Assembly (NCBI GenBank): GCA_030525525.1
Contig: JAUNEN010000010.1
Coordinates: forward strand, 1-64,000
Direction of reading: 5' to 3'
Source of the DNA: Erysipelotrichaceae bacterium
GTDB lineage: Bacteria; Bacillota_I; Bacilli_A; Erysipelotrichales; Erysipelotrichaceae
DNA: 64,000 nucleotides
Positions 38,355 through 60,636 of the stretch are shown here, piece after piece (position 1 is the stretch's first letter; the number at the start of each line of letters is the position of its first letter). A program made the position numbers and the translations under genes. The notes beneath the pieces are model-generated. The model was not told where the DNA came from. It saw nothing but the letters and a program-made list of their open reading frames with translations, and made no database searches.

Positions 38355-39659
38355 TTATATCTTTCTCTTGTCGATGACGCGAACAGCTTTTCCTTCACTT
38401 CTTGCAATTGTCTTCGGTGCAACAAGTGTGACCTTTGCCTTTAAGCCAAGCATTGACCTGAGGCCATCCACAAGAACCTTCTGACGGTCGGAGATGTCAC
38501 CGATGTTGTCAGTGAACATTTCAGGTGTCATTTCAACCTGGACATCGAGTGTATCGGTGTTGTTGACACGGTCGACAATGATCTGATAGTTTGCCGGATA
38601 GCCGTTGTTGAGCAGCACGGTTTCGATCTGGCTCGGGAAGACGTTGACGCCGCGGATAATCAGCATATCGTCTGTTCTGCCCATCGGTTTTCTCATTCTG
38701 ACATGTGTTCTGCCGCATGAGCACTTTTCATAGTTGAGCATGCAGATATCACGTGTTCTGTAACGGATCAGCGGGAACGCTTCCTTGTCAAGGCATGTGA
38801 AGACAAGCTCACCCTGCTCGCCGCCTTCCATCACTTCACCTGTCTTCGGATTGATGATTTCCGGAACGAAGTGATCTTCATTGACATGCATACCCTGCTG
38901 GGCGGAACATTCAAAGGAAACGCCCGGGCCTGAGATTTCAGTTAAGCCATAGATATCATAAGCCTTGATACCGAGTGTCTTTTCGATATCGCGGCGCATT
39001 TCATCACTCCACGCTTCAGCACCAAAGATTCCTGCCTTGAGAGGAATATCATCCGGACCGTAGCCGAGTTCCTTCATTCTTTCGCCAAGATATGCCGCAT
39101 ATGAAGGTGTGCAGCAGAGAATGGTTGCCTGCAGATCCATGATGAACATGATCTGTCTGTCCGTGTTGCCTGAGCTTGTCGGAACAGTCAGGCATCCGAC
39201 TTTGTGGGAACCGCCGTTAAGACCCGGACCGCCTGTGAAAAGACCGTATCCGTAGGAGACCTGGCAGACATCTTCATTTGTTCCGCCGGCTGCCGTAATC
39301 GCACGTGCGCAGCAGTCTTCCCAGATGTCAATGTCATGCTGGGTATAGAATGCGACAACACGCTTGCCGGTTGTGCCTGAAGTCGACTGAATGCGGACGC
39401 AATCCTTCAGAGGCATGCCAAGCAGACCGTAGGGATACTGTTCCTTGAGGTCATCCTTTGTCGTAAAGGGAAGCTTATAGAGATCATCGATGGATTTGAT
39501 GTCATCGGGTGTCACGCCGGCAGCTTCCATTTTCTTTCTGTAAAACAGAACGTTGTTATAGACATGATGAACCTGTTTGATGAGTTTTTCCGACTGGATT
39601 GCCCTGATTTCCTCACGGCTGGCTGTCTCAATTTCTTTCTGATAGTACCTTTCTTCCAT
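38355..39659 (-). CDS. paaK: Phenylacetate--CoA ligase
   Basis: 434 residues. The ANL fold shows YKLPFTTKDDLKEQYPYG, the P-loop IQSTSGTTGKRVV and YGLTEISGPGV; RTRDICML supplies the hinge aspartate. A four-cysteine-type block (CSCGRTHVRM) is typical of PaaK-type enzymes. It activates aryl acetates to their CoA thioesters with ATP. In an anaerobe with ior genes upstream, it may instead run in reverse to conserve energy from arylacetyl-CoA. GGGGAGG precedes the ATG. It belongs to the iorA-iorB-paaK-ACT operon. Confidence 0.93.
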   Translation of the reverse strand: MEERYYQKEIETASREEIRAIQSEKLIKQVHHVYNNVLFYRKKMEAAGVTPDDIKSIDDLYKLPFTTKDDLKEQYPYGLLGMPLKDCVRIQSTSGTTGKRVVAFYTQHDIDIWEDCCARAITAAGGTNEDVCQVSYGYGLFTGGPGLNGGSHKVGCLTVPTSSGNTDRQIMFIMDLQATILCCTPSYAAYLGERMKELGYGPDDIPLKAGIFGAEAWSDEMRRDIEKTLGIKAYDIYGLTEISGPGVSFECSAQQGMHVNEDHFVPEIINPKTGEVMEGGEQGELVFTCLDKEAFPLIRYRTRDICMLNYEKCSCGRTHVRMRKPMGRTDDMLIIRGVNVFPSQIETVLLNNGYPANYQIIVDRVNNTDTLDVQVEMTPEMFTDNIGDISDRQKVLVDGLRSMLGLKAKVTLVAPKTIARSEGKAVRVIDKRKI

Positions 39660-39681
39660 GTATCCTCCCCAATCTCAGATC

Positions 39682-40254
39682 TCAGGCATTTTTCCCAAGT
39701 TCGAATGCTTTCTTATTCATTTCAAGGAAACGGGAAGGAACAATCGCTTCCAGCGAAGCCATCCAGTCCGCCTCATCAATGTCAAAGTAATGAGAAAGTC
39801 TGCCGAGAAGGACAACGTTGACCGCTTTGGAAGAACCTGCTTCTTCAGCCAGCTTCAGACAGTCAAGCGCATCGACCTTAACGCCTGCATTCTTCATTTT
39901 TTCAATTACATTTTCAGGATATTTCATCGCTCCGGTGATGACCGGCATCGGATCAATCTGCTGTGTATTTGTAACAATCACGCCGTCTTCCTTCAGATAG
40001 GAAAGCCATCTGGCAGCTTCGAGAGCTTCAAAGGAAACGATGACATCCGCTTCACCCTGATCAATGACAGGTGAATAAACCTTATCGCCGTATCTGACAT
40101 ATGTGACGACGCTTCCGCCGCGCTGGCTCATGCCGTGAACTTCGGAAACCTTGACATCATAGCCCTGGTTCATTAACAGATGGCCGAGCAGCTTTGAAGC
40201 GAGCAGACTTCCCTGTCCGCCGACGCCGACGATCATAATATTCTTCGTATTCAT
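39682..40254 (-). CDS. iorB: Indolepyruvate oxidoreductase beta subunit
   Basis: 190 residues. The N-terminal MIVGVGGQGSLLASKLLGHLL (the GGQG motif) and SEVHGMSQRGGSVVTYVRYG match the gamma-type domain of 2-oxoacid:ferredoxin oxidoreductases and IorB. The gene starts two bases after the iorA stop, with AGGAGG inside the end of iorA, so the subunits are translationally linked. With IorA it oxidatively decarboxylates aryl pyruvates to aryl-acetyl-CoA, reducing ferredoxin. Confidence 0.94.
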   Translation of the reverse strand: MNTKNIMIVGVGGQGSLLASKLLGHLLMNQGYDVKVSEVHGMSQRGGSVVTYVRYGDKVYSPVIDQGEADVIVSFEALEAARWLSYLKEDGVIVTNTQQIDPMPVITGAMKYPENVIEKMKNAGVKVDALDCLKLAEEAGSSKAVNVVLLGRLSHYFDIDEADWMASLEAIVPSRFLEMNKKAFELGKNA

Positions 40255-40256
40255 GT

Positions 40257-42011
40257 TTAAGCCTCCTGTTCTGATGAAACAAGTGCGTCAAAGTGACACA
40301 GCTGTGAGCAGACGCCGCATCCGACGCAGAGAGTTGCGTCAACACATGCCTTGCCTTCCTTGATGGAGATTGCCGGGCAGCCGATTCTCATGCATGACTG
40401 ACAGCCGACGCACTTACCCGGATCTGCCTTGAGGGCAGGTTTATGCTTGACATATTTGAGCAGTGCACAAGGTCTTCTTGAAATAATGACGGACGGTTCA
40501 TTGACGGAAAGTTCTTCTTTCAGAACCTGATCGCATTCTTTCAGATTGTACGGATCAGCGACTCTGACTCTGCTGAATCCCATCGCTCTGCACAATGCTT
40601 CAAGATCAATCTTGCCGGCCGGATCGCCTTTGATGTTGTATCCGGTGGTCGGATTCTGCTGGTGGCCGGTCATGCCGGTGATCGAGTTGTCAAGAATGAT
40701 CACGGTTGAATTTGACTGGTTGTAGGCAACATTGGCAAGACCTGTCATGCCGGAATGCATGAATGTTGAATCGCCGATGACCGCAACTGTCTTTGATTCG
40801 CTCTTTTCACCGAGAATCTTATTGAAGCCATGAACTGCACCGATCGATGCGCCCATGCATAATGTTGTTTCAATTGTCGCAAGCGGAGCCGCTGCACCGA
40901 GTGTATAGCATCCGATATCGCCGAGTACGGTGCATTTGTTCTGCTTGAGTGTATAGAACATGCCTCTGTGCGGGCAGCCTGCACACATCACCGGCGGACG
41001 GGGCGGAATCGCATCTTCCAGCTTCTTTCCCTTATGGGGAGTGACGCCGAGCTTTTCAGCAATCAGATTCTGGGAGAATTCTCCTTCAAGCGGGAAGATA
41101 TTCTTGCCTTCTGTTTTGATGCCGAGCGCCTTGACATGATTCTCAATGATCGGATCGAGCTCTTCGACAACAACCAGTCTTTCAACCTTTGATGCAAAAT
41201 CACGTATCAGTCTCTCGGGAAGCGGGTTGGCAATGCCGAGTTTCAATACACTTGCCTTGTCGCCGAAGACTTCCTTGACATACTGATAGGATGTGGAAGA
41301 TGTGATAATGCCGAGTGATGTATCACCCATTTCGACTCTGTTCAGATCGCTTGTTTCAGCGAATTCAATCAGATCCCGGGTTCTCTGCTCAACGATCGGA
41401 TGGCGTCTGATCGCATTGCCCGGCATCATGACATATTTGGCGATATTCTTTTCATATTCCCTGACAGGAACCTGTCTTTCACCCGGTTCAACCAGCGACT
41501 GCGAGTGGGCAACTCTTGTGCACATCTTGATCAGTACCGGTGTGTCAAACTGTTCGGAAATTTCAAAAGCTCTCTTTGTAAATTCAAGGCTTTCAGCCGA
41601 ATCGGACGGTTCCAGCATCGGCAGCTTGGCAGCGATCACATGATGGCGGCTGTCCTGCTCGTTCTGGCTTGAATGCATACCGGCATCATCGGCAACCCCG
41701 ACAACGAGGCCTGCATTGACGCCTGTATAAGACATTGTATAAAGAGGGTCGGCAGCTACATTGAGACCGACGTGCTTCTGCGCACAGAATGCTCTTCTGC
41801 CGGCCAGGCTTGCGCCGAATGCTGCTTCCATGGCCACCTTTTCATTGGGTGCCCATTCACAATAGATTTCATCATACTTTGCGGCCTCTTCCGTGATCTC
41901 GGTACTCGGTGTACCGGGATAGCTGGAAATGAAGCAGACACCTGCTTCATATAAGCCTCTTGCGACTGCTTTGTTGCCAAGCATCAGTTCTTTTTTCTTC
42001 GGATTTTCCAT
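40257..42011 (-). CDS. iorA: Indolepyruvate ferredoxin oxidoreductase alpha subunit
   Basis: 584 residues. The pyrimidine-binding region (GVCFISSYPGTPSTEITEEA), the TPP-binding stretch (GDIGCYTLGAAAPL... and GDSTFMHSGMTGLANVAYN) and two C-terminal [4Fe-4S] ferredoxin motifs (CVGCQSCMRIGC and CVGCGVCSQLC) are in the expected order. It converts indolepyruvate and other aryl pyruvates, made by transamination, to aryl-acetyl-CoA with ferredoxin reduction. The gene is the first of its operon and divergent from an acyl-CoA synthetase gene. Confidence 0.95.
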   Translation of the reverse strand: MENPKKKELMLGNKAVARGLYEAGVCFISSYPGTPSTEITEEAAKYDEIYCEWAPNEKVAMEAAFGASLAGRRAFCAQKHVGLNVAADPLYTMSYTGVNAGLVVGVADDAGMHSSQNEQDSRHHVIAAKLPMLEPSDSAESLEFTKRAFEISEQFDTPVLIKMCTRVAHSQSLVEPGERQVPVREYEKNIAKYVMMPGNAIRRHPIVEQRTRDLIEFAETSDLNRVEMGDTSLGIITSSTSYQYVKEVFGDKASVLKLGIANPLPERLIRDFASKVERLVVVEELDPIIENHVKALGIKTEGKNIFPLEGEFSQNLIAEKLGVTPHKGKKLEDAIPPRPPVMCAGCPHRGMFYTLKQNKCTVLGDIGCYTLGAAAPLATIETTLCMGASIGAVHGFNKILGEKSESKTVAVIGDSTFMHSGMTGLANVAYNQSNSTVIILDNSITGMTGHQQNPTTGYNIKGDPAGKIDLEALCRAMGFSRVRVADPYNLKECDQVLKEELSVNEPSVIISRRPCALLKYVKHKPALKADPGKCVGCQSCMRIGCPAISIKEGKACVDATLCVGCGVCSQLCHFDALVSSEQEA

Positions 42012-42063
42012 GACTCTCTCCGTTTCATATCCCTTTTTTCAACTGCGGGTTAATATGTTTTGT

Positions 42064-42092
42064 ATTATATCGCTCATATATTGATAATTCAA
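42064..42092 (-). promoter_or_regulatory. iorA promoter
   Basis: On the minus strand TTGAAT (42092-42087), a 17-base spacer and TATAAT (42069-42064). Its -35 directly abuts the -35 of the divergent promoter. Confidence 0.75.
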
Positions 42093-42109
42093 CATTTTAA
42101 TGTTACAAT
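42081..42109 (+). promoter_or_regulatory. Acyl-CoA synthetase promoter
   Basis: TTGATA, a 17-base spacer and TACAAT on the plus strand, facing away from the iorA promoter. Confidence 0.75.
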
Positions 42110-42120
42110 GCGTTAACGCA
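42091..42120. promoter_or_regulatory. Two palindromes over the divergent promoters
   Basis: AACATTTTAATGTT lies in the spacer of the plus promoter and overlaps the end of the iorA -35. TGCGTTAACGCA covers the plus -10 end and the likely start point. Both are candidate repressor sites. Confidence 0.55.
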
Positions 42121-42147
42121 CTAAATTGTTGAAAGGACGTTACGATT

Positions 42148-43782
42148 ATGCCGATTACAGATCTTCTGGAAAAAAACAGAAAACTTTACGGAAACGATGT
42201 GGCCCTGGTCGAAATCAACCCGGAGCTCAGAGAAGAACAGCGAGTCACATGGAAGGAATATGAACTCATCCAGCCGACTTCAAACACATTCTACAGACGC
42301 CAGATCACATGGGCTGTCTTTGATGAAAAGGCAAACCGTGTTGCGAATATGCTGATGGACAGAGGCATTCTGCCCGGTCAGAAATGTGCAGTTCTGCTCA
42401 TGAACTGCCTGGAATGGCTGCCGATTTACTTCGGTATCCTCAAAGCAGGAGCGATTGCCGTGCCGCTCAACTTCCGCTTCACTGCCGATGAAATTGAATA
42501 CTGCATTGACGCTTCCGACAGCGATGTCCTCTTCTACGGACCGGAGTTTATCGGAAGAATTGAAGATATTGCCGATAAGATCAAGAAGAACACCCTGCTC
42601 TTCTTCGTCGGCGATCAGACACCGGCTTATGCAGAAGACTACTACCGTCAGGCTGCCAACTACTCTTCGGAAGCACCGAAGATCCTAGTGCAGGACACCG
42701 ATGACGGAGCGATCTATTTTTCAAGCGGAACAACCGGCTTCCCCAAAGCCATCCTTCTGAAACATGAAGCGCTCATGCAGTCGGCACGCATGGAAGCCAT
42801 CCATCATGAAACAACCAGAAACGATACATTCCTCTGCATCCCTCCTCTTTACCATACAGGAGCGAAAATGCACTGGTTCGGTTCTCTTTATACCGGCAGC
42901 CGCGCCGTCATTCTCAAAGGAAACTCTCCGGAAGCGATCATGCGTGCGGTTTCCAATGAAGGCTGCACGATTGTCTGGCTGCTTGTCCCCTGGGCACAGG
43001 ACATCCTCGCTGCCCTTGATTCAGGAAAAATCAAACTTGAAGATTACAGAACAAGCCAATGGCGCTTAATGCACATCGGTGCACAGCCTGTACCGCCGAG
43101 CCTCATCAAGCACTGGCTGACCTACTTCCCGAATCATCAGTATGATACAAACTACGGTCTTTCCGAATCCACCGGTCCGGGATGTGTGCACCTTGGCATG
43201 GAGAATGTTTCCAAAGTCGGTGCCATCGGTATTCCGGGCTATGGCTGGAAAACAAAAATTGTCGATGAAACAAACCAGCCTGTCAGACAGGGAGATGTCG
43301 GTGAGCTTTGCGTCAAGGGCCCCGGCGTCATGGTTGAATACTATAAGAATCCTGAGGCAACAGCCGAAGTTCTTGAAAACGGCTGGCTCCATACCGGTGA
43401 TATGGCCATGATGGATGAAGACGGATTCATTTTCCTGGTCGACCGTAAGAAAGACGTCATCATTTCCGGCGGTGAGAACCTCTATCCGGTTCAGATTGAA
43501 TCCTTCCTGATGACAAACCAGAAGATTCATGACGCTGCTGTCATCGGTCTTCCGGATGAAAGACTCGGCGAAATCGCCGCTGCGATCATCCAGGTCAAGG
43601 AAGGCTATGAATTAAGCGAGGATGAGCTCAACCAGTTCTGCCGTGAGCTGCCCCGCTACAAGAGACCGCGCAAAATCATTTTCGCCAATGTCATCCGCAA
43701 TGCGACAGGCAAGATTGACAAGCCGAAGCTGAGAGAAATCTACGGCGGTTCAAGACTTGTCGAAAAGCAGAACAGATCTTAA
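42148..43782 (+). CDS. AMP-forming acyl-CoA synthetase
   Basis: 544 residues. ANL motifs are complete: YFSSGTTGFPKAI, YGLSESTGPG, HTGDMAMMDEDG, a lysine-rich hinge (FLVDRKKDVIISGGENLYP) and a C-terminal catalytic lysine in NATGKIDKPKLRE. It should make a CoA thioester from a carboxylic acid. Divergent placement from the iorA operon suggests an aromatic or medium-chain acid, but the substrate is open. AAGGACG precedes the ATG. Confidence 0.9.
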   Translation: MPITDLLEKNRKLYGNDVALVEINPELREEQRVTWKEYELIQPTSNTFYRRQITWAVFDEKANRVANMLMDRGILPGQKCAVLLMNCLEWLPIYFGILKAGAIAVPLNFRFTADEIEYCIDASDSDVLFYGPEFIGRIEDIADKIKKNTLLFFVGDQTPAYAEDYYRQAANYSSEAPKILVQDTDDGAIYFSSGTTGFPKAILLKHEALMQSARMEAIHHETTRNDTFLCIPPLYHTGAKMHWFGSLYTGSRAVILKGNSPEAIMRAVSNEGCTIVWLLVPWAQDILAALDSGKIKLEDYRTSQWRLMHIGAQPVPPSLIKHWLTYFPNHQYDTNYGLSESTGPGCVHLGMENVSKVGAIGIPGYGWKTKIVDETNQPVRQGDVGELCVKGPGVMVEYYKNPEATAEVLENGWLHTGDMAMMDEDGFIFLVDRKKDVIISGGENLYPVQIESFLMTNQKIHDAAVIGLPDERLGEIAAAIIQVKEGYELSEDELNQFCRELPRYKRPRKIIFANVIRNATGKIDKPKLREIYGGSRLVEKQNRS

Positions 43783-49609: not shown

Positions 49610-50449
49610 TCAAATCTCATTGATCCGCCATCTTGCATAGCGGTTGACAGGTCTGTCGAAATATTTCGCACCGCCGGTTTCTCTGAAGATTTCAGCAAAA
49701 ACAGTCAGTGCCATATCGTCGATGTTGCGGATTCTGCCGGCAATGAAGGAAACCGCCGCCAGCTCGTTTTTCTCATTGATCATAAATGCCATCTGCGGCG
49801 TTCCTCTGACGGCCGCTAAAACGGCTGCGATCACCCGTTCATCAGGTTCATCAATCACATATGTATTCGATTCATGATTGGAGAAGAAGATCAACTGGGA
49901 AACCTTTTGTGTTCCGCAAATCCGCTTCGCCTCTTCAAGAATCTTTTCATCCTTCTCACGCTTACAGAGTTCTTCGATATAAGGATCCAGAACAACTTTT
50001 TCTTCTTCCTGCATTTCGTTCTGACTTTCCTTTGTGACATCAAAGATCAGAATATCGACGCCGCTTGCCGTCCCGTGTCCTTCACTGCGGTAAACAGGTT
50101 TTGAAAGCAGTTCACTCAGATACGGCGAATCGCTGAGAAAGGATGGGCAAGCATGAAAGACTTCAGGCCTCGACGTCGGTTCGAAATATCCGTTGTTTTC
50201 AACAAACAGCCTGCATCTTCTTCCTTCTCTGTCGATTCCTTCAAACATATATTTTGCGCACATATGCCGGATTTGGGCTGCGTTGACTGTCTGTACATCG
50301 CATGCGCCGGGCAGAATCTTTCCTTTGAAATGTTCCGATTCGGTATAGCCGCCAAATGGAATCATGACAGCTGCACCGTTTGGAGCTTTCAGCTCATTGA
50401 TACCGGCGCGCTCGATAATAATATGAAAAGTCATAAGAGGTGAAGACAT
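49610..50449 (-). CDS. DUF3237-type protein with extra C-terminal domain
   Basis: 279 residues from the ATG at 50449 (AGAAGG upstream). The N-terminal ~150 residues resemble DUF3237 (FHIIIERAGINELKAPNGAAVMIPFGGYTESEHFKGKILPGACDVQTV). The last ~115 form a second domain I do not recognise, starting around RICGTQKVSQLIFF with an alpha/beta pattern (DERVIAAVLAAVRGTPQMAFMI). DUF3237 proteins often neighbour aromatic or polyketide metabolism genes; their biochemistry is unclear. The gene lies between the TetR gene and the aldo/keto reductase on one strand. Confidence 0.65.
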   Translation of the reverse strand: MSSPLMTFHIIIERAGINELKAPNGAAVMIPFGGYTESEHFKGKILPGACDVQTVNAAQIRHMCAKYMFEGIDREGRRCRLFVENNGYFEPTSRPEVFHACPSFLSDSPYLSELLSKPVYRSEGHGTASGVDILIFDVTKESQNEMQEEEKVVLDPYIEELCKREKDEKILEEAKRICGTQKVSQLIFFSNHESNTYVIDEPDERVIAAVLAAVRGTPQMAFMINEKNELAAVSFIAGRIRNIDDMALTVFAEIFRETGGAKYFDRPVNRYARWRINEI

Positions 50450-50547
50450 ATGGGAACCTTCTTTCTTTTGTATGCTTAATACCATTGTATCAGCCAAATA
50501 TCGCAAATTGCTTTGGATATATAAAAACTTCCGCATTCACGGAAGTC

Positions 50548-51165
50548 TCATTCACCGGATTTCCTTGAAATCCCTTCTTTATTGTCCAGCAGCTTGTAGA
50601 AATAGCCGGCTGCCGAATGGGTAATATCGTAAAGATAATTACAGAGCTCCGTTTCGGAAAGACTGCCCGGCTCATCAAGCCAGATCATGATAATACTCGT
50701 CAGACCGTCCGATATACACGCTCTGCTCATTTTCAGAACCTGATCCTGTTCGATCAGTTCCGTTCCGTTGAAAACAGCGTGCAGTGTTTCATCGATAAAC
50801 ACCCTGCGGACCATATCACGGAAGCGTGTCTCCGAACATTTTGCAAGAATCTTCAGAAGAGAGCGGTTTTTGTTCACCGAACGGATGCACCACTCCGAAG
50901 TCCGGTACATGGCATCCTTTGAAAGATTGGAGATGATCTCTTCGTTCAGATCATCGATCATCCGTTTTTCAACTTCATTGTAGACCGCCTCAAGGAGGGA
51001 ATATTTGCTGTCGTAATGACCGTAGAAGGCATTGCGGCTGATCCTTGCCCTGGCACAGATATCCTTGATATGGATTTCTTCAATCGTACGTTCTGAGCAG
51101 CATGATAAAAATGCATTTCGGATCAGTTCTTCTGTTTTGATATATCTGAGATCTTTGACTGTCAT
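50548..51165 (-). CDS. TetR family regulator
   Basis: 205 residues from the ATG at 51165 (AGAGGT upstream). The N-terminal helix-turn-helix is clear: TEELIRNAFLSCCSERTIEEIHIKDICARARISRNAFYGHYDSKYSLLEAVY. The C-terminal ligand domain is helical and diverse, as usual. The gene is divergent from the OYE-type gene and upstream of the DUF3237/AKR pair. A 20-bp dyad overlapping its own leader suggests self-regulation. The ligand is unknown but presumably a small hydrophobic molecule. Confidence 0.88.
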   Translation of the reverse strand: MTVKDLRYIKTEELIRNAFLSCCSERTIEEIHIKDICARARISRNAFYGHYDSKYSLLEAVYNEVEKRMIDDLNEEIISNLSKDAMYRTSEWCIRSVNKNRSLLKILAKCSETRFRDMVRRVFIDETLHAVFNGTELIEQDQVLKMSRACISDGLTSIIMIWLDEPGSLSETELCNYLYDITHSAAGYFYKLLDNKEGISRKSGE

Positions 51166-51177
51166 AGATACCTCTTT

Positions 51178-51197
51178 AAATGACATACTGTTCATTT
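51178..51197. promoter_or_regulatory. Candidate TetR operator
   Basis: AAATGA-N8-TCATTT forms a symmetric dyad 13 bases upstream of the TetR start. The half-site TTCATTTGT recurs at 51234-51242, nearer the divergent OYE gene. Confidence 0.5.
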
Positions 51198-51356
51198 GTT
51201 CCCTTTATCTCACACATTAATTTTTTTGTCAATTTCATTTGTCATGCATGCGCGCTATATTATGGACGGAAGCAGTATTCTTTACAAACAGTAAAATCGT
51301 TAAGCATCAAAGAGGGTATTTTTTGCGTGTAACAACAGAATAAGGAGGTAATGTTT

Positions 51357-53297
51357 ATGCGCTTCAATCACACTTTCTCACCCTATCGGATCGGTAACGT
51401 CGACATCAAGAACAGACTGATCGTTCCGGCTATGGACTCGGGTGTCTTTGACCCGAAAGGATTTGTTTACCAGCCCACTCTTGATTACTACGGAGCCCGC
51501 GCTGCCGGCGGTTTCGGCCTCATTATCATTGAAATCACAGCCGTTGAACCGACCGGTGTCGGTATGCCCTGCGAGCCTGCCGGATGGACAGATGAATGCA
51601 TTCCGGGCATGACAAAGCTCGCTTCGGTAATCCACGAGCATGGAGCCAAGACAATCGTTCAGCTCCACCATGCAGGACGTGAAACCGTCTCCGCCTTGGC
51701 CGGCAAGGTTGTCGCACCTTCATCCGTACCGTGCCCGACAAACCGTGAAACACCTCATGAATTCACAACCGAAGAAGTCTATGAACTGATTCAGCATTAT
51801 GTCGATGCGGCTGTCCGTATGAAGAAAGCCGGATTCGACGGCGTTGAAATCCACGCTTCCCACGGCTACATGGGCGGTCAGTTCCTCTCCCCGCGTTCCA
51901 ACAAGAGAGTTGATGAATTCGGCGGCGGCGTGGACGGACGTGCTTACTTCATGAAGCTTGTCTGCGAAGGCATCAAGAAAGCATGCGGCGAAGATTTCGC
52001 TGTCACTGCCCGTCTTTCCTCCAAGGAAAACAGAATCGGCGGTCTTGAAATGGAAGAGACTGTCGTCTATGCATCAATGCTTGAAGAATACGGATATGAT
52101 GCACTGCACATCTCTGCAGGTACATATGAAACATGGGAGACCATCGTACCGCCGACCGCATGGCAGTCCGGATGGAACCTTTCAAACGCAAGAAGAATCA
52201 AGGAAGCAGTCGACATTCCTGTTATTTCAGTCGGTCTCTTCCATGATCCGTTCACAATCGAGACTGCAATCAGAAGAGGTGATTGCGACGCTGTATCACT
52301 GGGCCGTCAGTCAATCGCCGATCCCGCCTTCCCGAACAAAGCAGTCGGCGGCGCAATTGAAGATATTATCCCGTGTATCGGCTGCACACAGAGATGCATG
52401 GAATTCAACTATCCTGAGAACCTGATGCCGGGCGACTGGGGTGTCGGATGTATGTACAACCCGCAGTCCTCACACCGTGCAGACAGAATGCTCACAAAGA
52501 CAGCTGAGCCGAAGAAAGTTGTCGTTGTCGGTGCAGGTCCTGCCGGCATGACTGCCGCATGGATGAGCGCATGGCGCGGACATGATGTTGTCCTTCTTGA
52601 AAAGAACGGCAAGCTGCAGGCCGGCGGTCAGTTAAGAATCGGTGCCTATCCGCCTTTCAAGCAGCCGCTGACACGTGAAATCAGATACATGCTGCACATG
52701 TGCGAAAAGAACGGCGTTGACATCAGGTGGAATTGCGAAGCAACACCCGAAGTCATCAAGTCATTCAATCCGGATGTTGTCATCGTCGCTACCGGTGCAA
52801 AACCGAGCGTACCGCCGATCAAGGGCTTAAAGGAAACAGGCGTTGTTCTGGCAAACGATGTGCTGCTCGGCACACCTGTATTGCAGAAGAGCGCGCTGAT
52901 TATCGGCGGCGGCGAAGTCGGTGCTGAAACAGCTGAATATGCGACAGACTACTGCTCAAGAGTTGCCATCGTGGAGATGCTGCCGGAAATCGTTCCGACT
53001 CTCTATCTCACAGTCAGAAATGCAATGCTTGACCGTATCAAGAAAGAAGAAATCGAAGTCTACACAAGCACAAAGGTTCTCGAATTCATCGAGGGCGGCG
53101 TCATTGCTGAAAAAGACGGCGAACAGCTGAAGCTCGATGGATTCGATACTGTCATTCTCGCTCTTGGTTCCAAGCCTTATGTACCGTTTGAAACAGAAGG
53201 ACTTGCGGATCAGGTTTATGTGATCGGTGATGCCGATGCTGTCAAGGATGCCAAGTGGGCAATCTACAAAGCATACCGCACAGCGATGGAGATCTGA
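51357..53297 (+). CDS. Old-yellow-enzyme/2,4-dienoyl-CoA-reductase-type NADH:flavin oxidoreductase
   Basis: 646 residues from the ATG at 51357, eight bases after AAGGAGGT; an ATG at 51351 is too close to it. The N-terminal TIM barrel binds FMN (FSPYRIGNVDIKNRL, QLHHAGRE, HASHGYMGGQFLSP with catalytic-type Tyr171). Cys340, 343, 347 and 365 form a [4Fe-4S] site (CIGCTQRC...C). An FAD domain (VVVGAGPAGM near 387) and an NAD(P) domain (LIIGGGEVGAETAEY near 513) follow. This is the layout of FadH and of BaiCD/BaiH steroid reductases, which reduce conjugated double bonds. It overlaps the next gene by one base (TGATG). Confidence 0.92.
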   Translation: MRFNHTFSPYRIGNVDIKNRLIVPAMDSGVFDPKGFVYQPTLDYYGARAAGGFGLIIIEITAVEPTGVGMPCEPAGWTDECIPGMTKLASVIHEHGAKTIVQLHHAGRETVSALAGKVVAPSSVPCPTNRETPHEFTTEEVYELIQHYVDAAVRMKKAGFDGVEIHASHGYMGGQFLSPRSNKRVDEFGGGVDGRAYFMKLVCEGIKKACGEDFAVTARLSSKENRIGGLEMEETVVYASMLEEYGYDALHISAGTYETWETIVPPTAWQSGWNLSNARRIKEAVDIPVISVGLFHDPFTIETAIRRGDCDAVSLGRQSIADPAFPNKAVGGAIEDIIPCIGCTQRCMEFNYPENLMPGDWGVGCMYNPQSSHRADRMLTKTAEPKKVVVVGAGPAGMTAAWMSAWRGHDVVLLEKNGKLQAGGQLRIGAYPPFKQPLTREIRYMLHMCEKNGVDIRWNCEATPEVIKSFNPDVVIVATGAKPSVPPIKGLKETGVVLANDVLLGTPVLQKSALIIGGGEVGAETAEYATDYCSRVAIVEMLPEIVPTLYLTVRNAMLDRIKKEEIEVYTSTKVLEFIEGGVIAEKDGEQLKLDGFDTVILALGSKPYVPFETEGLADQVYVIGDADAVKDAKWAIYKAYRTAMEI

Positions 53298-53632
53298 TGT
53301 CAGTCAGCGAAGTACTTGAAAAATACGTTGCCGCATTGAATTCTGCAAATGCGGACAATGTCGCAGTCCTCTATGCGGATGAATGCTCATTTGTGGACGG
53401 CGGGGCAAGACCCTTTGGCTTCCCGGATGTTGTTGCAAACGGAAAAGAAGGCGTCAGAAATGCATTTGCCGGCGTATTTGAAACCTACAAAGTTGAAGCG
53501 AAGATCGTGAAGCTCAATCCCAATTCCATGGAATATGATGTCGAGCTTGCCGGTCTGCACATTCCCTGTATCGGCGCTGCCACATGCAATGAGGATGGAC
53601 TCATCACAGAATATATTGTCCGTCCCCGCTGA
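53297..53632 (+). CDS. Ketosteroid-isomerase-like (NTF2/SnoaL fold) protein
   Basis: 111 residues, starting at the ATG that overlaps the OYE stop as TGATG, so translation is coupled. The N-terminus EKYVAALNSANADNVAVLYADECSFVDG aligns well with ketosteroid isomerases. Tyr10 corresponds to the catalytic Tyr14 of the Comamonas enzyme, and Asp34 to the general base Asp38. The place of Asp99 is not clearly conserved. The fold also includes BaiE-type dehydratases and SnoaL cyclases. It may isomerise or dehydrate the product of its OYE partner. A strong terminator follows. Confidence 0.8.
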   Translation: MSVSEVLEKYVAALNSANADNVAVLYADECSFVDGGARPFGFPDVVANGKEGVRNAFAGVFETYKVEAKIVKLNPNSMEYDVELAGLHIPCIGAATCNEDGLITEYIVRPR

Positions 53633-53657
53633 TCGGATCATTCACTGAATCATCACC

Positions 53658-53693
53658 AAACCCGGAATCATGTGTCAGGATTCCGGGTTTTGA
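53658..53693 (+). terminator. Strong rho-independent terminator
   Basis: AAACCCGGAATC / GATTCCGGGTTT, a 12-bp stem with an 8-9-base loop and a TTTTG tail. Confidence 0.9.
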
Positions 53694-53807
53694 TTTGTGA
53701 TCTGCATGTAGAAAAGTCAGTTCTGATCATGAAGCAGAAAAATGATGAAATATGGTATGCTGAAATCAGAAAAACAAATTGACCAAACACAATTAAAGGA
53801 GCTTGTT

Positions 53808-55139
53808 ATGCGCGGTTTTGATGAAGAATATCAGCGAAAGCTTCAAACGCCGGAAGAGGCCGTAAAAATTGTCAAAAGCGGAGATTGGGTGGACTATGGA
53901 ACCAATGTCTGTTTTCCGACTCTTCTGGACGAAGCTCTTTCGAAACGTCGGGATGAACTGACCGATGTTAAAATCCGGGGCAATCTTGCTTTCGGTCCCG
54001 TAAAAGCTGCCGAGTGCGATCCTTCGAGAGAGCACTTCCATTACAACAGCTGGCACTGCTCGGCTTATGAGAGAAAACTCTGCGACCGCGGTTTATGCAA
54101 TTACATTCCGATGATTTTCAGAAATGTTGTCCCTTATTACAGACATTTCCTGACTGTCAATGTCGCAATGATCTGTGTCACGCCGATGGATCGCCACGGC
54201 TATTTCAATCTTTCCTGCGCCGCCGGCATTGCAAAAGGAATTCTCGACAAGGCAGATTATGTCATTCTGGAGATCAATGAACATCTGCCGAAGATCTACG
54301 GCGGATTTGATGAAAGCATTCATATTTCCGAAATCGACTGCATCGTCGAAGGAAAACATGATCCCCTTCCTGAATTTCCGATCCCCAAAGCAGAAAAAGA
54401 ACATGTCGCCATTGCCGAACATATCCTCCCTTATATTCCGGACGGTGCAACGCTGCAGCTTGGAATCGGTGCTCTGCCCAATGTCGTCGGCAGTATGCTT
54501 GCCAAAAGCGATCTGAAAGATCTCGGCATGCATACGGAGTTATGCGGGGATGCGTATTATGAGCTTTTCAAAGCCGGCAAGCTGACAAACAAAAGAAAAA
54601 CATACCAGCCCCATAAAGGTGTCACCGGAATGGTATTCGGTTCGCATGAACTGTATGAATGGGTCAATGAGAATCCCGGCGTGATTGCCGAACCGCTTGA
54701 ATTTGTCAATGCGTCAGAAGTGATTGCCCTTCAGGAAAACATGATCGCCATCAACAACTGCATCTCAATCGATTTATACGGTCAGACCGGTGCAGAAAGT
54801 GCAGGTTTACGCCATATCAGCGGCACCGGCGGACAGCTTGATTATCTGACCGGGGCTGCCATGAGCAAAGGCGGCAAGGCATTTGCCTGCATGACTTCGA
54901 CATTTACGGACAAGCAAGGCAAGCTGCACTCCCGCATTGTCCCTTATTTCAAAGGCGATATCGTCACCATTCCCCGCTCCCAGGATCATTTCGTCGTCAC
55001 CGAATACGGAGCCGTCAATTTAGCCGGCCGCTCGACATGGGAAAGAGCGGAAATGCTGATATCAATTGCCCATCCTGCTTTCCGGGAAGAACTGATCCAT
55101 GCCGCGGAAGAACAGAAAATCTGGCGCTCTCATCACTGA
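53808..55139 (+). CDS. Acetyl-CoA hydrolase/CoA-transferase family protein
   Basis: 443 residues from the ATG at 53808, with AAAGGAG seven bases upstream; a longer in-frame start at 53742 lacks one. Family blocks include [46 protein letters not shown], and the C-terminal [32 protein letters not shown] with the glutamate expected to form the CoA ester. It most resembles 4-hydroxybutyrate/acetyl-CoA:acid CoA-transferases. It would move CoA between acids, as BaiF does for bile acids with an unrelated fold. A hairpin with T-rich tail follows. Confidence 0.9.
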
Positions 55140-55530: not shown

Positions 55531-57063
55531 TCATGTGTGGATTCTTTTTTCAATCTCGATTGCCTTGAGAATGATCTCCATCCGTAATCTCTGATCAGGA
55601 TTCTTCAGACTGATATCCAGTTCCCTTTCGATTCTTGCAATGCGGTCAATCAGGGTTGAACGGTGTATGTAAAGCCTTCGTGCAGCTGATGTATAAGACA
55701 GATTTTCTTCCAGGAAGACACGCAGTGTTTCAAGATACGACACACCTGATGCATCATCATGACGGATGATTTCTGAAAGGCCGCTTGGAAAATAGGCATT
55801 GGAAGGCAGATCGCCGAGCGCATTGAGCACAAGCTCATTGAGGGCATATTCTTCAAAGAAATAGAGGATTCCTGCAGGATTGAACAGAATGCCGTTTTCA
55901 ATGGCACAGATGGCCTGGGTATGATGAATGCGGATGTCAAAGAGATCATTGAAGACTGAAGAAATTCCTGCTTTGAGCTTCATCGATTCACAGAATTCTT
56001 TCAGCCTCATTCCTTCATGTTTCATCAAACCGCTGGGACTGCCTGAAACTTCATGATCCGTTTTCAGGAAACAGACAACCCCTTCATCACTCTGAAATGC
56101 CCATGAATCCCTGAATTGTTCTTCAAAGGAATCGCAGATATAGCCATAGGGAATGCGGTTCTTTTTATTTGCATAGCGTAAGATTGCGCACACATAATCT
56201 GTTTTCAGATTTGCCCCGTTCAGGATCAGACGCTGCGACTGCGAAATCGGCTGTTCATCGACAAGCGTTCTCAGCAATGATTTGACACTCGGCTGTTCCT
56301 CATTCACAAGTAACGGATTTTTCTCAATCGCGGTTTCAATCATGCCGGCAAGAAATTCGGCAAGTCTGTCTTCGCCTTCATTGAATTCTTCTTCGCCATA
56401 TGCAATGCATAAGCATCCTTCATATTGTGAAAATCGGTCAAACAGATTGACGCAGAGTGTGCGGTTGCCTTTGATTTCAATCCTGAGTGCGCCATGCCTC
56501 TCAGTCTGCAGATCCGATGCATTCAGAAATGTGCTGAGCGATTCTGCATTCAGAGCACCGCTTGACTGCGATCCCCATTCTTTTTTCTTTGCTTCATTTC
56601 CGGCAGAAGCCATGATGTGAAAGGACGAATCCAGCAGAACAAGTGACTTTGAAAAAACGGCAAACGAGTCACGGATCATCAGCTGAATGCTTCCGTCTTT
56701 CAGAAGATCCCGGTAAAGATTTCTTTCCCACTCGTCATAGCGGTTGAAGATATTCTGCAGGAAGTGATACGCCTTGAAAAAATCGGTGCGGTTATGAATC
56801 GTGATGAGGCATAGTCTTTCTTCAAAATAGCGCAGCGCATTGGATTCCCCGATGCATACAAGAACTGCACCTCTCTGGATTTTGGGACGGCGCGGAAGAT
56901 GTTCGGCAGTTGCCAGATACAGATGATCCGTCAGGAAAGAATCCTCCCCGTCCATATAGAATTCGGGACGCGAAAGAGTCAGTCGTTTTTCGTGAGGACC
57001 GTTCATTGTGATTCTGTATTGTGAAGAAAGCTCAAGATACAGAATATCCGCATTCAGTTTCAT
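55531..57063 (-). CDS. PucR family transcriptional regulator
   Basis: 510 residues from the ATG at 57063, with AAGGAG seven bases upstream. The C-terminal PucR-type HTH is clear: LETLRVFLEENLSYTSAARRLYIHRSTLIDRIARIERELDI. The N-terminal ~120 residues resemble the PucR sensory domain (YLELSSQYRITMNGPHEKRLTLSRPEF). A middle GGDEF-like or GAF-like region lies between. PucR-type activators control purine, polyol or aromatic catabolism genes. It is divergent from the SDR operon and is its likely regulator. The effector is unknown. Confidence 0.85.
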   Translation of the reverse strand: MKLNADILYLELSSQYRITMNGPHEKRLTLSRPEFYMDGEDSFLTDHLYLATAEHLPRRPKIQRGAVLVCIGESNALRYFEERLCLITIHNRTDFFKAYHFLQNIFNRYDEWERNLYRDLLKDGSIQLMIRDSFAVFSKSLVLLDSSFHIMASAGNEAKKKEWGSQSSGALNAESLSTFLNASDLQTERHGALRIEIKGNRTLCVNLFDRFSQYEGCLCIAYGEEEFNEGEDRLAEFLAGMIETAIEKNPLLVNEEQPSVKSLLRTLVDEQPISQSQRLILNGANLKTDYVCAILRYANKKNRIPYGYICDSFEEQFRDSWAFQSDEGVVCFLKTDHEVSGSPSGLMKHEGMRLKEFCESMKLKAGISSVFNDLFDIRIHHTQAICAIENGILFNPAGILYFFEEYALNELVLNALGDLPSNAYFPSGLSEIIRHDDASGVSYLETLRVFLEENLSYTSAARRLYIHRSTLIDRIARIERELDISLKNPDQRLRMEIILKAIEIEKRIHT

Positions 57064-57301
57064 GAGGCACTCCTTTTTCTTCATTGTACAACAAACCATT
57101 TATTCATGACCGTCAATCTGTAGGTGTCTGTTGACATTTCGGCTGACATTTTTATCGGCCCCTTTCTCAGATGTCCGCATGAATTCAGCGGTTTCAGGGA
57201 AACACATCACTTTTTGCAAAGATCCCCCATCCGTCATTTTGTTTGTGAAACATGCATCTTTTTCCTTCTTTATCCGTATAGGAGAGCACTCTTCATCTTT
57301 T

Positions 57302-57316
57302 TACAATGAAATTGTA
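57302..57316. promoter_or_regulatory. Palindrome upstream of the SDR operon
   Basis: TACAATgaaATTGTA lies about 45 bases upstream of the SDR start. A related TTGTACAA is at 57085-57092 beside the PucR start. The 297-bp divergent gap holds no gene I recognise. Confidence 0.45.
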
Positions 57317-57360
57317 TTCAATCACGGGAATACCGTTTCATATTGAGGAGGAAATCATTC

Positions 57361-58269
57361 ATGCCCTTTACACCCAATGACAAATCCATGCTGGAAGGCT
57401 ATATCAGAAAAGCCCGTCCTTTTGAAGAGATGTTCTCTGTCAGAGGAAAGACAGCCATCATTACCGGCGGCTCCAGCGGTTTGGGATTTGATATCACACT
57501 GCGTCTTCTGCAGGGTGGCGCCAATGTCGTCATCGCATCCTATTCTGAAATCGAAAGGGATGCGGCAATGCCTTTACTTGAAGAGCAGGGATTCAAAGAC
57601 ACCGTCAGATTCTGTAAGACAGATGTCACAAAGGAAGAAGAAGTCGAAGCTCTTGTGAATTACACAGTCGAAACCTTCGGAACCGTCGACATCTATGTCA
57701 ACTGCGCGGCGACATGGAACTATGCAAAGATCTATGATCTGCCCAAGGAAGATCTTCAGAAAGTATTTGCCGTCAATGTCTTCGGTGCATTCTTTGGCGT
57801 CAAATATGTCAGCCGCGTCATGAAGGATTCAGGAAACGGCGGCAAGATCGTCCTGATCTCATCCAACTGTCCGGTCATGCCTTATCCGGTATTCGGAGGC
57901 TATCCCCACTACGCATCAAGCAAAGCCGCAATCATGGGCCTGACAGTCGAAACAGCCAAAGAGCTCAAGCGCTACGGCATCATGGTCAACTCAATTGCGC
58001 CGGGCGGAATGGTCACCCCCGGCAGTGCCGGCAACCTGGCTTCGGAAGCTCTTACCGAAGAACAGCAGGACGAGTTCTATGATGAACTGATGGTCTGGCA
58101 GACCGACGGCCAGATGGAAGTGGATCAGATCGGTATCATGGCCTATACATTCTGCACACCGGCTGCGGACGGAATCACGGGCGAAGTCATCATGGTTGAT
58201 GGCGGCGCTACTCATAATATCGTGAAATACCAGCCTGCAATTGATCAATACCCGCCTGAGGAGGATTAA
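57361..58269 (+). CDS. Short-chain dehydrogenase/reductase
   Basis: 302 residues from the ATG at 57361 (GAGGAGG upstream). An upstream TTG would include the ribosome site. TGGSSGLG at 35-42 binds the nucleotide, and Tyr184 and Lys188 in YASSKAA are the catalytic pair, with Ser in LISSN upstream. The NCAATW block replaces the usual NNAG. An N-terminal ~25-residue extension and a C-terminal tail distinguish it from minimal FabG proteins. It should oxidise or reduce a hydroxyl/keto group with NAD(P). It starts the SDR-Cys-rich-GcvT operon. Confidence 0.9.
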   Translation: MPFTPNDKSMLEGYIRKARPFEEMFSVRGKTAIITGGSSGLGFDITLRLLQGGANVVIASYSEIERDAAMPLLEEQGFKDTVRFCKTDVTKEEEVEALVNYTVETFGTVDIYVNCAATWNYAKIYDLPKEDLQKVFAVNVFGAFFGVKYVSRVMKDSGNGGKIVLISSNCPVMPYPVFGGYPHYASSKAAIMGLTVETAKELKRYGIMVNSIAPGGMVTPGSAGNLASEALTEEQQDEFYDELMVWQTDGQMEVDQIGIMAYTFCTPAADGITGEVIMVDGGATHNIVKYQPAIDQYPPEED

Positions 58270-58272
58270 AAC

Positions 58273-59499
58273 ATGACAAAGAAAATCAATGAAAGAATAC
58301 CTGCTGATTCCGGTAACGGCGCCGGTTTCAGACAGTTCAATGCCGTACAGTCACCCTGGAACAAGCTGATGAGCTATCAGGATGCCCTTCACTATGCATC
58401 AAGATTTGAAGCAGTCTTAAGCTCAGCTGTTGCCCAGGCATACAGAATCATCATTCCTGACTATGCAACCCGTGCCGATGAAATGTGCAAGGAAGCATAC
58501 GGCCGTCTGTTCTACACCGGACTCAATTATCCCAATGATGACGGCTTCGGCATTCACCCCTTCATGTGCGGCTCTTATCCGGGCGCTTTGATCGGTGACA
58601 AAGGCGATGACGCATTGCTGATGTGCGGGCGATGCCAGGATTTCGGAACATACAGATGTGAAAAAGAACTCGATGTCTGTGACTGGGATATCTGCGGAAG
58701 CGAACTTTGCCGTGCAACGACGATGTCCCTGCAGGGTCAGGCAGACGCCACCGAAACAAGACACAGAAAAGGAAAGAAGCTTGACTATCTGATGGTTGAA
58801 GCAAAAGGCTGCGGAGACAGACACTGCCGTATCATTGCCGAAAGCCGTGAAAAATACCCTGCCCCGCCGCATGCACTTTGGGAATCCTTTGGCCCTGCGG
58901 TTTCCGATGATTACAAGAAATTCACAGCGGAAGAAGAATGCGTGGAAGAATCCATGATGTTCCGTGAAGAATGTGACTATCACTTTGTCAACGGCACAAA
59001 CAACGAAACCGACTCTTCCAACCAGATGGTCAACCTGTCCACTGCCGCTTCCCTCTACCTTCTGCCGGCAATCGCAAATGCCGTCAAACTCGGCTACACA
59101 ACCGAACAGAATGCAGAATGGATCAAGAAGTGCGTTCTTGAAGCAGCCGGCAAGGCAATGTTCGGCGAGCGCTATGCAATCCGCGCATGCAGAGAGTGGC
59201 TGGGTGTTCCGGACAATGTGCATGACGGAAGAATGCTCGGCGGTGTGATTGAGATGCTGCTGCAGTCAATCCTCTGCAATTATGAAATTGAAGCCTTCAA
59301 TGAGAACGAAGTCATCTATGTCATCGACAGAAGCGGACTTGCAATCGGTGCAACACAGTCACTGTGCGAAGCGCATCTGTATATGTGGCACGGCATGGTC
59401 AAGACTCTTGTCAGCGCTGAATGGAGCGTCTGGGAAGAAGATTCCCCGAAGGGCAAGATGCGCATCAAAATTGCAAAGAAGATCGATAAATTCATGTAA
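58273..59499 (+). CDS. Cysteine-rich protein of unknown function, V4R-like hints
   Basis: 408 residues, three bases after the SDR stop, with GAGGAGG upstream. The N-terminal half holds ten cysteines at 72, 99, 118, 121, 129, 136, 141, 146, 180 and 185. A CxxC pair (CGRC) and the CDWDICGSELC cluster stand out. The block KGCGDRHCRIIAE near 179-191 resembles the end of V4R (4-vinyl-reductase) domains, which bind small hydrophobic molecules or metals; this is weak. The second half is helical with many Asn/Thr (NGTNNETDSSNQMVNLSTAAS). There is no signal peptide. Tight coupling to the SDR and GcvT-like genes implies one pathway. I do not claim a reaction. Confidence 0.75.
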   Translation: MTKKINERIPADSGNGAGFRQFNAVQSPWNKLMSYQDALHYASRFEAVLSSAVAQAYRIIIPDYATRADEMCKEAYGRLFYTGLNYPNDDGFGIHPFMCGSYPGALIGDKGDDALLMCGRCQDFGTYRCEKELDVCDWDICGSELCRATTMSLQGQADATETRHRKGKKLDYLMVEAKGCGDRHCRIIAESREKYPAPPHALWESFGPAVSDDYKKFTAEEECVEESMMFREECDYHFVNGTNNETDSSNQMVNLSTAASLYLLPAIANAVKLGYTTEQNAEWIKKCVLEAAGKAMFGERYAIRACREWLGVPDNVHDGRMLGGVIEMLLQSILCNYEIEAFNENEVIYVIDRSGLAIGATQSLCEAHLYMWHGMVKTLVSAEWSVWEEDSPKGKMRIKIAKKIDKFM

Positions 59500-59513
59500 G
59501 GAGACGGGCTCTT

Positions 59514-60545
59514 ATGTTTAAGAATATTTTTAAAAACGACGACTGGAAACGCCGTGAACATATGGCGGTCCGTGAAAAGGTCGGATATTATCTGTTCACC
59601 CATCAGCTCATGGAAGTCACCGGTCCCGATGCTCAAAGATTCCTGGACTGGATCTTCCCGAATAAAATTGACACCCTGAAAGTCGGACGCGACCGCTATA
59701 CCGTCATGCTCAATGAGAAAGGCGAAATCATCGATGACGTTGTCGTCATGCGCATGGATGAAGAAAGATACTGGGTTTCCACCCTCTATGCAACAAAGGC
59801 AGATGACTGGTTCTATTACCACAGTGAAGAATTCGATGTCGACTGCTCAGAGATCACCGAAGACTGGCACATGTTCTCCATCCAGGGACCGCTCTCCAAA
59901 GATGTCATGAACAAGCTTGTCGAAGGCGGCGTTGATGATCTGAAATTCTTCGCAAACAGAGAAGCGAAGATGAATGACATTGATATCATTGTCAACCGCG
60001 GCGGCTTCACCGGTGAGAAACTTGGCTATGAGGTCTATTGCGCAGCCGATGATGCCGATGCAGTTCAGGATCTGATCGATGCAGCGGTTAAAGAAGCAGG
60101 CGGTCTTGAAGTCACTGAATTCCAGGTCTTTGCCTGGACACTTCCGACCGAAGCAGGCTTCTATTACATGAGAGATCTTGCCCACACCAATCCGTTTGAA
60201 GTGGGTCTTGAAAAGAATATCAACTGGGACAAGGAATTCATCGGAAAAGAAGCCCTTCTGAAGATTAAAGAAGAAGGACCGAAGAGAGAGATGGTCGGCT
60301 TCATCGTCACCGATCCCGAAGAAAACTTCTACATCCGTGCAAAGCAGTACGGAGGACCGGGTGAACCTGTCTTTATCGAAGGTGAAGAAGAGGAAGTCGG
60401 CCGTGTTTCAAAGATGGTCTACTCCTATGTCAAAGACGTCAACAACGGCTACATCCTCGCCAAAAAAGACAAGCTCCATATCGGTGATAAGATCAGAATT
60501 CACGGATATGAATGTGAAATCACTGAAAAGAACTGGCTGAACTGA
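59514..60545 (+). CDS. GcvT-like folate-dependent aminomethyltransferase/demethylase
   Basis: 343 residues, with AAGGAG ten bases before the ATG. The GcvT fold is evident: GPDAQRFLDWIFPNKIDTLKVGRDRYTVMLNEKGEIIDDVVVMR, with Asp74 at the place of the catalytic aspartate of GcvT; GGFTGEKLGYEVY; and a C-terminal barrel (VGFIVTDPEENFYIR). GcvT itself forms part of the glycine cleavage system, but no gcvP/gcvH is here. Relatives such as LigM and DmdA transfer methyl groups from substrates to tetrahydrofolate. The operon suggests a substrate demethylation of that kind. Confidence 0.85.
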   Translation: MFKNIFKNDDWKRREHMAVREKVGYYLFTHQLMEVTGPDAQRFLDWIFPNKIDTLKVGRDRYTVMLNEKGEIIDDVVVMRMDEERYWVSTLYATKADDWFYYHSEEFDVDCSEITEDWHMFSIQGPLSKDVMNKLVEGGVDDLKFFANREAKMNDIDIIVNRGGFTGEKLGYEVYCAADDADAVQDLIDAAVKEAGGLEVTEFQVFAWTLPTEAGFYYMRDLAHTNPFEVGLEKNINWDKEFIGKEALLKIKEEGPKREMVGFIVTDPEENFYIRAKQYGGPGEPVFIEGEEEEVGRVSKMVYSYVKDVNNGYILAKKDKLHIGDKIRIHGYECEITEKNWLN

Positions 60546-60582
60546 ATCACATCAGCAGATCTGCTTAACTGAATAACATGCA

Positions 60583-60614
60583 AAAAAGGAAGATCAATTG
60601 CGGTCTTCCTTTTT
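60583..60614 (+). terminator. Rho-independent terminator
   Basis: A perfect AAAAAGGAAGA / TCTTCCTTTTT stem with a ten-base loop, 38 bases after the GcvT-like stop. Confidence 0.9.
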
Positions 60615-60636
60615 GCGTGATGTGTTTTGGAACTGT

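Follow-up and report, generated by a model that had tools for sequence, protein, structure and literature searches.

Corrinoid methyltransferases are usually held responsible for the anaerobic removal of methyl, methylene or hydroxymethyl groups in the gut. A functional analogue of the system described here is TDM, the trimethylamine N-oxide demethylase, which combines a GcvT-like tetrahydrofolate (THF) domain with a zinc-cysteine domain releasing formaldehyde. The GcvT-like proteins BrdA and SesA (demethylenases of berberine and sesamin) move the methylene group of methylenedioxy rings to THF (PMC5547118), and other GcvT relatives, namely LigM, DesA and DmdA, transfer the methyl group of O- or S-methyl compounds to give 5-methyl-THF (PMC6888825, PMC5547118). 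The locus reported here lies in a 64,000-nucleotide stretch of DNA from an Erysipelotrichaceae bacterium (GenBank assembly GCA_030525525.1, contig JAUNEN010000010.1, positions 1 to 64,000; hereafter the window), where the genes for a short-chain dehydrogenase/reductase (SDR), a cysteine-rich protein (CYS) and a GcvT-like protein, together referred to as the triad, form an operon divergent from the gene of a PucR-type regulator (Table 1). Judging from sequence and gene context, we consider the triad to be a candidate anaerobic catabolic unit that would pass a one-carbon (C1) group of formaldehyde oxidation level from a small compound to THF, with 5,10-methylene-THF as the product, and put the probability of this reading at about 0.55. 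The substrate is probably plant- or diet-derived and perhaps aromatic; it is the predicted phenol-sensor fold alone that suggests the latter. The triad is apparently a new architecture within the known THF-dependent C1-transfer systems, conserved and undescribed in the open-access library searched: searches there turned up no matching system, be it a GcvT-like demethylase of the gut, a pairing of V4R with GcvT or a gut methoxy demethylase dependent on THF, in agreement with the original prediction, which had held a demethylase-type unit of this composition to be undescribed.

The GcvT-like protein carries the GCV_T domain (Pfam PF01571) with 166.5 bits against a gathering cut-off of 25.6. It reached neither of the GcvT models (NF001567, 160 bits against 300; TIGR00528, 132 against 235.85) and stayed below the cut-offs of the NCBIfam models for TDM (124 bits against 1100), DmdA (107 against 410) and the LigM/DesA equivalogs (66.5 against 580 and 64.3 against 800); its score to SoxA was 125 bits. 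In a maximum-likelihood tree, in which deep branching is not resolved and several rows are long, the GcvT-like proteins of the triads formed one group (support 93/88) apart from GcvT, TDM, DmdA, LigM/DesA, SoxA and a DMGDH-like protein, with LigM/DesA on a separate long branch; DmdA was represented by the sequence of a PDB alignment and LigM by one from a Rhizobium plasmid, and BrdA and SesA were left out. BrdA and SesA resemble the triad in that a GcvT-like protein takes a formaldehyde-level C1 group of a plant compound to THF with no oxygen chemistry, and they are set apart from it by description, not by sequence, as single proteins of aerobes for which no SDR or V4R-like partner has been described (PMC5547118). 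In contrast to TDM, which is one fused chain whose partner domain scores as a urea-amidolyase-associated (DUF1989-type) family and not as V4R, the GcvT-like protein of the triad is not fused to another domain. Identity with ordinary GcvT was rejected by score, by the tree and by the separate true GcvT of the host, whose gene adjoins that of GcvP on a different contig. The absence of glycine-cleavage partners, claimed earlier, holds locally; neither GcvH nor GcvP was found beside the window triad or among the shared neighbour clusters of the other loci, not every neighbour of which was annotated. Common to the triad protein and GcvT are the fold, the folate-site Tyr, Asp and Glu and, as we infer, the 5,10-methylene-THF product. 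Tyr62, Asp75 and Glu173 align with Tyr83, Asp96 and Glu195 of the T. maritima protein (residue offsets were counted manually) and do not vary among 27 aligned sequences; with these folate-site residues kept, the protein is a putative THF-binding protein. Asp74, singled out in the original prediction as the retained residue, is indeed invariant as well, but by the alignment it is Asp75 that corresponds to the catalytic Asp of GcvT.

A total of 84,980 species genomes were scanned with CYS. This yielded 57 loci in Erysipelotrichaceae, Lachnospiraceae, Oscillospiraceae and related metagenome-assembled genomes (MAGs), with Blautia schinkii, Blautia parvula and Fusibacillus kribbianus among the named carriers and goat, sheep, cattle or deer gut in the titles of many carrier MAGs. 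Searches with all three window proteins (tblastn) showed that SDR, CYS and GcvT-like genes co-occur at every locus with an uncut contig, and since 57 loci carry the triad the arrangement is not due to chance. The gene order is SDR-CYS-GcvT with a divergent PucR-type gene upstream in the near and mid clades, and CYS-GcvT-SDR with a divergent regulator, at least one of PucR type, in the far clade (approximately 50% identity); most homologous loci are flanked by a divergent regulator of the PucR type, which is likely to be substrate-responsive. The pairwise distances of the three proteins correlate (r = 0.89–0.94, 48 loci), which is explained in part by shared ancestry. Occurrence is rare: the window genome was the only one of 392 sampled Bacillota genomes with a CYS match. 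One genome contains a second, diverged CYS-GcvT copy (L016:14695–21226; 45% and 54% identity), which may constitute a sister pathway for a different substrate; its neighbours are two further SDRs, of other types than the triad SDR, together with a Zn-alcohol dehydrogenase and an esterase of the hormone-sensitive-lipase type. In F. kribbianus, a 533-aa FadX-like CoA-transferase is encoded directly 3' of the triad (L031:5099–6697); its family differs from that of the CoA-transferase in the window.

Genes for folate C1 metabolism are linked to the triad, in keeping with the THF dependence suggested in the original prediction: at 19 of the 57 loci at least one of formate-THF ligase (Fhs), methenyl-THF cyclohydrolase (FchA) and FolD is encoded nearby (FolD at 16, FchA at 16, Fhs at 11 and, in addition, FolC at 5). 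The 16 FolD genes compare with 0.4–0.7 expected in the 0.89 Mb examined, on the assumption of one to two FolD per 2.5 Mb, the Poisson value being naive given that the loci are related. The ligase scored 946 bits, over its cut-off, and FchA fell short of its cut-off (167 bits against 275), with an FTCD_C match at E = 7e-56; genes of the FolT folate-transporter family are also found nearby (over the cut-off at L005, just below it at L046 and L050). At L050, a distant relative, the genes for CYS, GcvT, SDR, a major facilitator superfamily (MFS) transporter, a second SDR, Fhs, FchA and FolD follow one another on one strand, and L058 is similar but lacks the transporter; overall, three or more arrangements of the linkage occur across two diverged clades. 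MetF, on the other hand, is encoded near the triad in a single neighbourhood out of 57 and was not found in six of 16 carrier genomes (L005, L008, L012, L035, L046 and L050; MAG incompleteness is possible); in five of these six, FolD or FchA is encoded next to the triad. Among calibrators, a real LigM (780 bits, over the cut-off) adjoins MetF, a DesA/LigM-like gene adjoins MetF and PurU, and a DMGDH-like FAD-GcvT fusion (a C1 oxidase) lies near PurU and FolD; against this contrast the triad looks methylene-level. Strong CdhC matches were present in five of the 16 carriers (L023, L030, L031, L036 and L047), none of which has C1 genes beside the triad, compared with seven of the 11 others (one-sided Fisher test approximately 0.03, by hand and not phylogeny-corrected), in line with genes for C1 oxidation accompanying the triad in organisms that lack the Wood-Ljungdahl pathway. 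Beside a FolD-FchA-PucR-triad arrangement, L004 (2419–5226) and four more loci encode a 936-aa protein, possibly an electron-transfer partner in C1 oxidation, that combines Fer4 and GltD-like domains with an N-terminal part lacking a Pfam match.

These data bear on the alternative that survives best, a demethylase of the LigM/DmdA type that would transfer the methyl of an O- or S-methylated compound to THF, with SDR and CYS acting before or after this step. LigM and DesA share with the triad a catabolic, THF-dependent C1 removal and linked THF-C1 genes including formate-THF ligase (PMC6888825), and differ from it in length (approximately 460 aa), in the methyl level of transfer and in their linkage to MetF, as in the ligM-metF-ligH operon of SYK-6 (PMC6888825). 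The activity of the GcvT relatives named above, the 107 bits to DmdA and the ability that acetogenic carriers could have to take 5-methyl-THF directly speak for such a demethylase, which we nevertheless regard as unlikely in view of the scarcity of MetF, the LigM/DesA scores of 66 and 64 bits and the separate LigM/DesA branch. Methylene transfer is favoured instead, because FolD, FchA and Fhs are the linked genes and because the scores are nearer to GcvT, SoxA and TDM than to DmdA or LigM. Of the THF-dependent demethylation originally proposed, the THF-dependent C1-removing unit remains the best reading, while the 5-methyl-THF product implied by the comparison with LigM and DmdA gives way to 5,10-methylene-THF.

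A biosynthetic direction, in which formate would be converted to methylene-THF via Fhs, FchA and FolD and the triad would add a hydroxymethyl or methyl group to an acceptor, is compatible with the same linked gene set; Fhs and FolD are reversible and formate is abundant in the gut. We rate this direction as improbable, since the patchy occurrence, the PucR-type regulator and the MFS transporter of L050 look accessory-catabolic and no conserved biosynthetic partner genes accompany the triad. Still less credible is that the triad merely sits within a general folate locus with no mechanistic tie to C1-THF metabolism. Genomes of the near clade have no FolD-like gene besides the linked one, as such a locus would have it, whereas L050 and L058 each possess a second FolD elsewhere, the several arrangements of the linkage span two diverged clades, and one member of the triad is itself a THF-type enzyme. 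That the GcvT-like protein is a folate-binding helper without C1-transfer catalysis, for instance one related to Fe-S clusters like YgfZ, has in its favour the existence of non-catalytic GcvT-fold proteins and, among our results, the shared fold alone, and is hardly tenable given that the folate-site residues are kept, that FIGKEA stands in place of the YgfZ motif KGCYxGQE and that no YgfZ model was among the NCBIfam matches. On the same motif, identity with YgfZ itself was rejected, so that the protein falls inside neither of the two families, true GcvT and YgfZ, against which its placement was to be checked.

CYS has no Pfam or NCBIfam match, and a Pfam scan of 28 members returned nothing meaningful and no V4R match at E up to 10. 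Six cysteines (Cys72, 118, 136, 146, 185 and 287) are present in every one of 53 sequences compared. An AlphaFold2 model built from 28 sequences (mean pLDDT 68, second half mostly around 90) was matched as a whole by Foldseek and VIA-align to TRAPP Bet3, H-NOX and the V4R phenol-sensor domains of PoxR, MopR and DmpR. With the N-terminal half alone the top matches were PoxR, MopR, DmpR and Bet3 (Z up to 8.2, at a pLDDT of 58), a V4R-family protein of M. jannaschii ranking lower, and the C-terminal half matched Bet3 and MopR (Z 7–8). PoxR was also the sole match of the family profile against PDB (E = 1.5), with EAKGCGDRHCRI aligned to ECVGCGHPHCRI of PoxR and the motif E-x-x-G-C-G-x-x-H-C-R-I common to both. 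Profile comparison detected no internal repeat, although both halves look V4R-like structurally. Taken together, these individually weak lines make it likely that CYS is a tandem V4R-superfamily protein, and the predicted fold and the invariant cysteines suggest that it probably binds a metal such as zinc. The middle protein, described as unrecognised in the original prediction, does lie outside the family libraries, yet its predicted fold looks V4R-like. In their predicted fold both halves resemble the V4R domains of PoxR, MopR and DmpR, TRAPP Bet3 and the vinyl-4-reductase family protein of M. jannaschii, and the protein differs from these in its tandem domains, the lack of a regulator domain and metal-site cysteines that are partly different. 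Heme binding of the H-NOX kind is not proposed: H-NOX scored high for the whole model and weakly for the first half alone.

The SDR has the family's TGxxxGxG motif and Asn-Ser-Tyr-Lys residues, with Asn139, Ser168, Tyr184 and Lys188 invariant in an alignment of 23 sequences, and scores below the cut-offs of the best-scoring NCBIfam models among the matches listed. In the mechanism that we propose, the PucR-type regulator would sense the compound and switch the operon on, and the SDR, whose catalytic residues are present, would oxidise a hydroxyl beside the C1-bearing carbon or heteroatom to a ketone, activating the C1 group for loss. CYS would hold the substrate, probably with a metal, and act with the GcvT-like protein, whose THF would accept the C1 unit. 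The methylene-THF formed could then be converted to 10-formyl-THF by FolD and FchA, from which Fhs would yield formate and ATP; acetogenic carriers would feed the C1 unit into the Wood-Ljungdahl pathway instead. Sarcosine-type oxidation of an N-methyl group is made less likely by the lack of a flavoprotein in the triad. In lignin-dimer catabolism, hydroxymethyl groups are known to be lost as formaldehyde, with SDRs active at other points of such pathways (PMC12997858).

Several observations weigh against this proposal. The loci stem from related species and are not independent, the mid clade (Lachnospiraceae) lacks the C1-gene linkage, and the near-clade linkage could in part belong to a housekeeping folate locus. 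Where GcvT has RLEA, the triad protein has LPTEA and so lacks the usual arginine, as does LigM (TLES). For CYS, the whole-model matches are modest (best Foldseek E = 3e-3, Z up to 8.9) and none is individually significant, and the N-terminal half modelled alone is of low confidence.

In the window, the layout is as originally described, with coordinates and open reading frames (ORFs) confirming three genes separated by gaps of 3 (SDR/CYS) and 14 bases (CYS/GcvT-like), a divergent PucR-type gene and a strong terminator behind the operon (Table 1). The SDR gene begins with ATG, with GAGGAGG upstream. In folding tests none of 200 shuffled sequences was as stable as the terminator hairpin, which an automated terminator scan of the window did not pick up, presumably owing to its loop length. 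No promoter-like match above chance was found in the presumed control region. Elsewhere in the host genome, Fhs is full-length and encoded on another contig, and the one copy of MetF lies in a methionine-biosynthesis neighbourhood; CdhC was not found, and a role of the triad as an acetyl-CoA-pathway enzyme of this host was rejected accordingly.

Table 1. Features of the triad locus in the window
Feature	Position	Strand	Basis
PucR-type regulator, divergent from the SDR-CYS-GcvT operon	55531..57099	-	HTH_30, E = 6e-18
Presumed control region between the divergent genes	57100..57360		Sequence
SDR oxidoreductase with N-terminal extension of ~25 residues	57361..58269	+	adh_short, E = 2e-45; alignment of 23
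Cysteine-rich protein (CYS), 408 aa, new family	58273..59499	+	No Pfam/NCBIfam match; AlphaFold2 and fold searches
GcvT-like protein, 343 aa, own clade	59514..60545	+	GCV_T, E = 9e-49; tree; alignments
Intrinsic terminator	60577..60619	+	-23.5 kcal/mol, z -6.7

Upstream of the regulator gene (50548–55139) are genes for a TetR regulator, a BaiCD/bilirubin-reductase-like Fe-S flavoenzyme (454 bits against a cut-off of 825), a small SgcJ/EcaC-like protein and a butyryl-CoA:acetate-type CoA-transferase, the last of which occurs at L002 and L056 too. Next to these, a 308-aa ORF without Pfam match (49610–50536) has as its neighbour an aldo-keto reductase with matches to Fe-S protein models. Further away (38355–43782), a phenylacetate-CoA-ligase-like protein, an indolepyruvate:ferredoxin oxidoreductase-like pair and an acyl-CoA synthetase are encoded, which suggests aryl-acid metabolism.

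More tentatively, at somewhat less than an even chance, the triad may represent a new O2- and corrinoid-independent mode of C1 removal from a dietary compound in gut and rumen Bacillota, in which a GcvT-like THF acceptor, itself free-standing, would be partnered by a tandem V4R-like metal-binding protein in a catalytic or substrate-binding role and an SDR would make the leaving group. If true, a THF-only unit in non-acetogens would represent a second route beside the corrinoid methyltransferases, energy could be gained as ATP via formate-THF ligase and formate would be supplied in the rumen, and the triad would provide the first catalytic context for a V4R-fold protein outside all family libraries.

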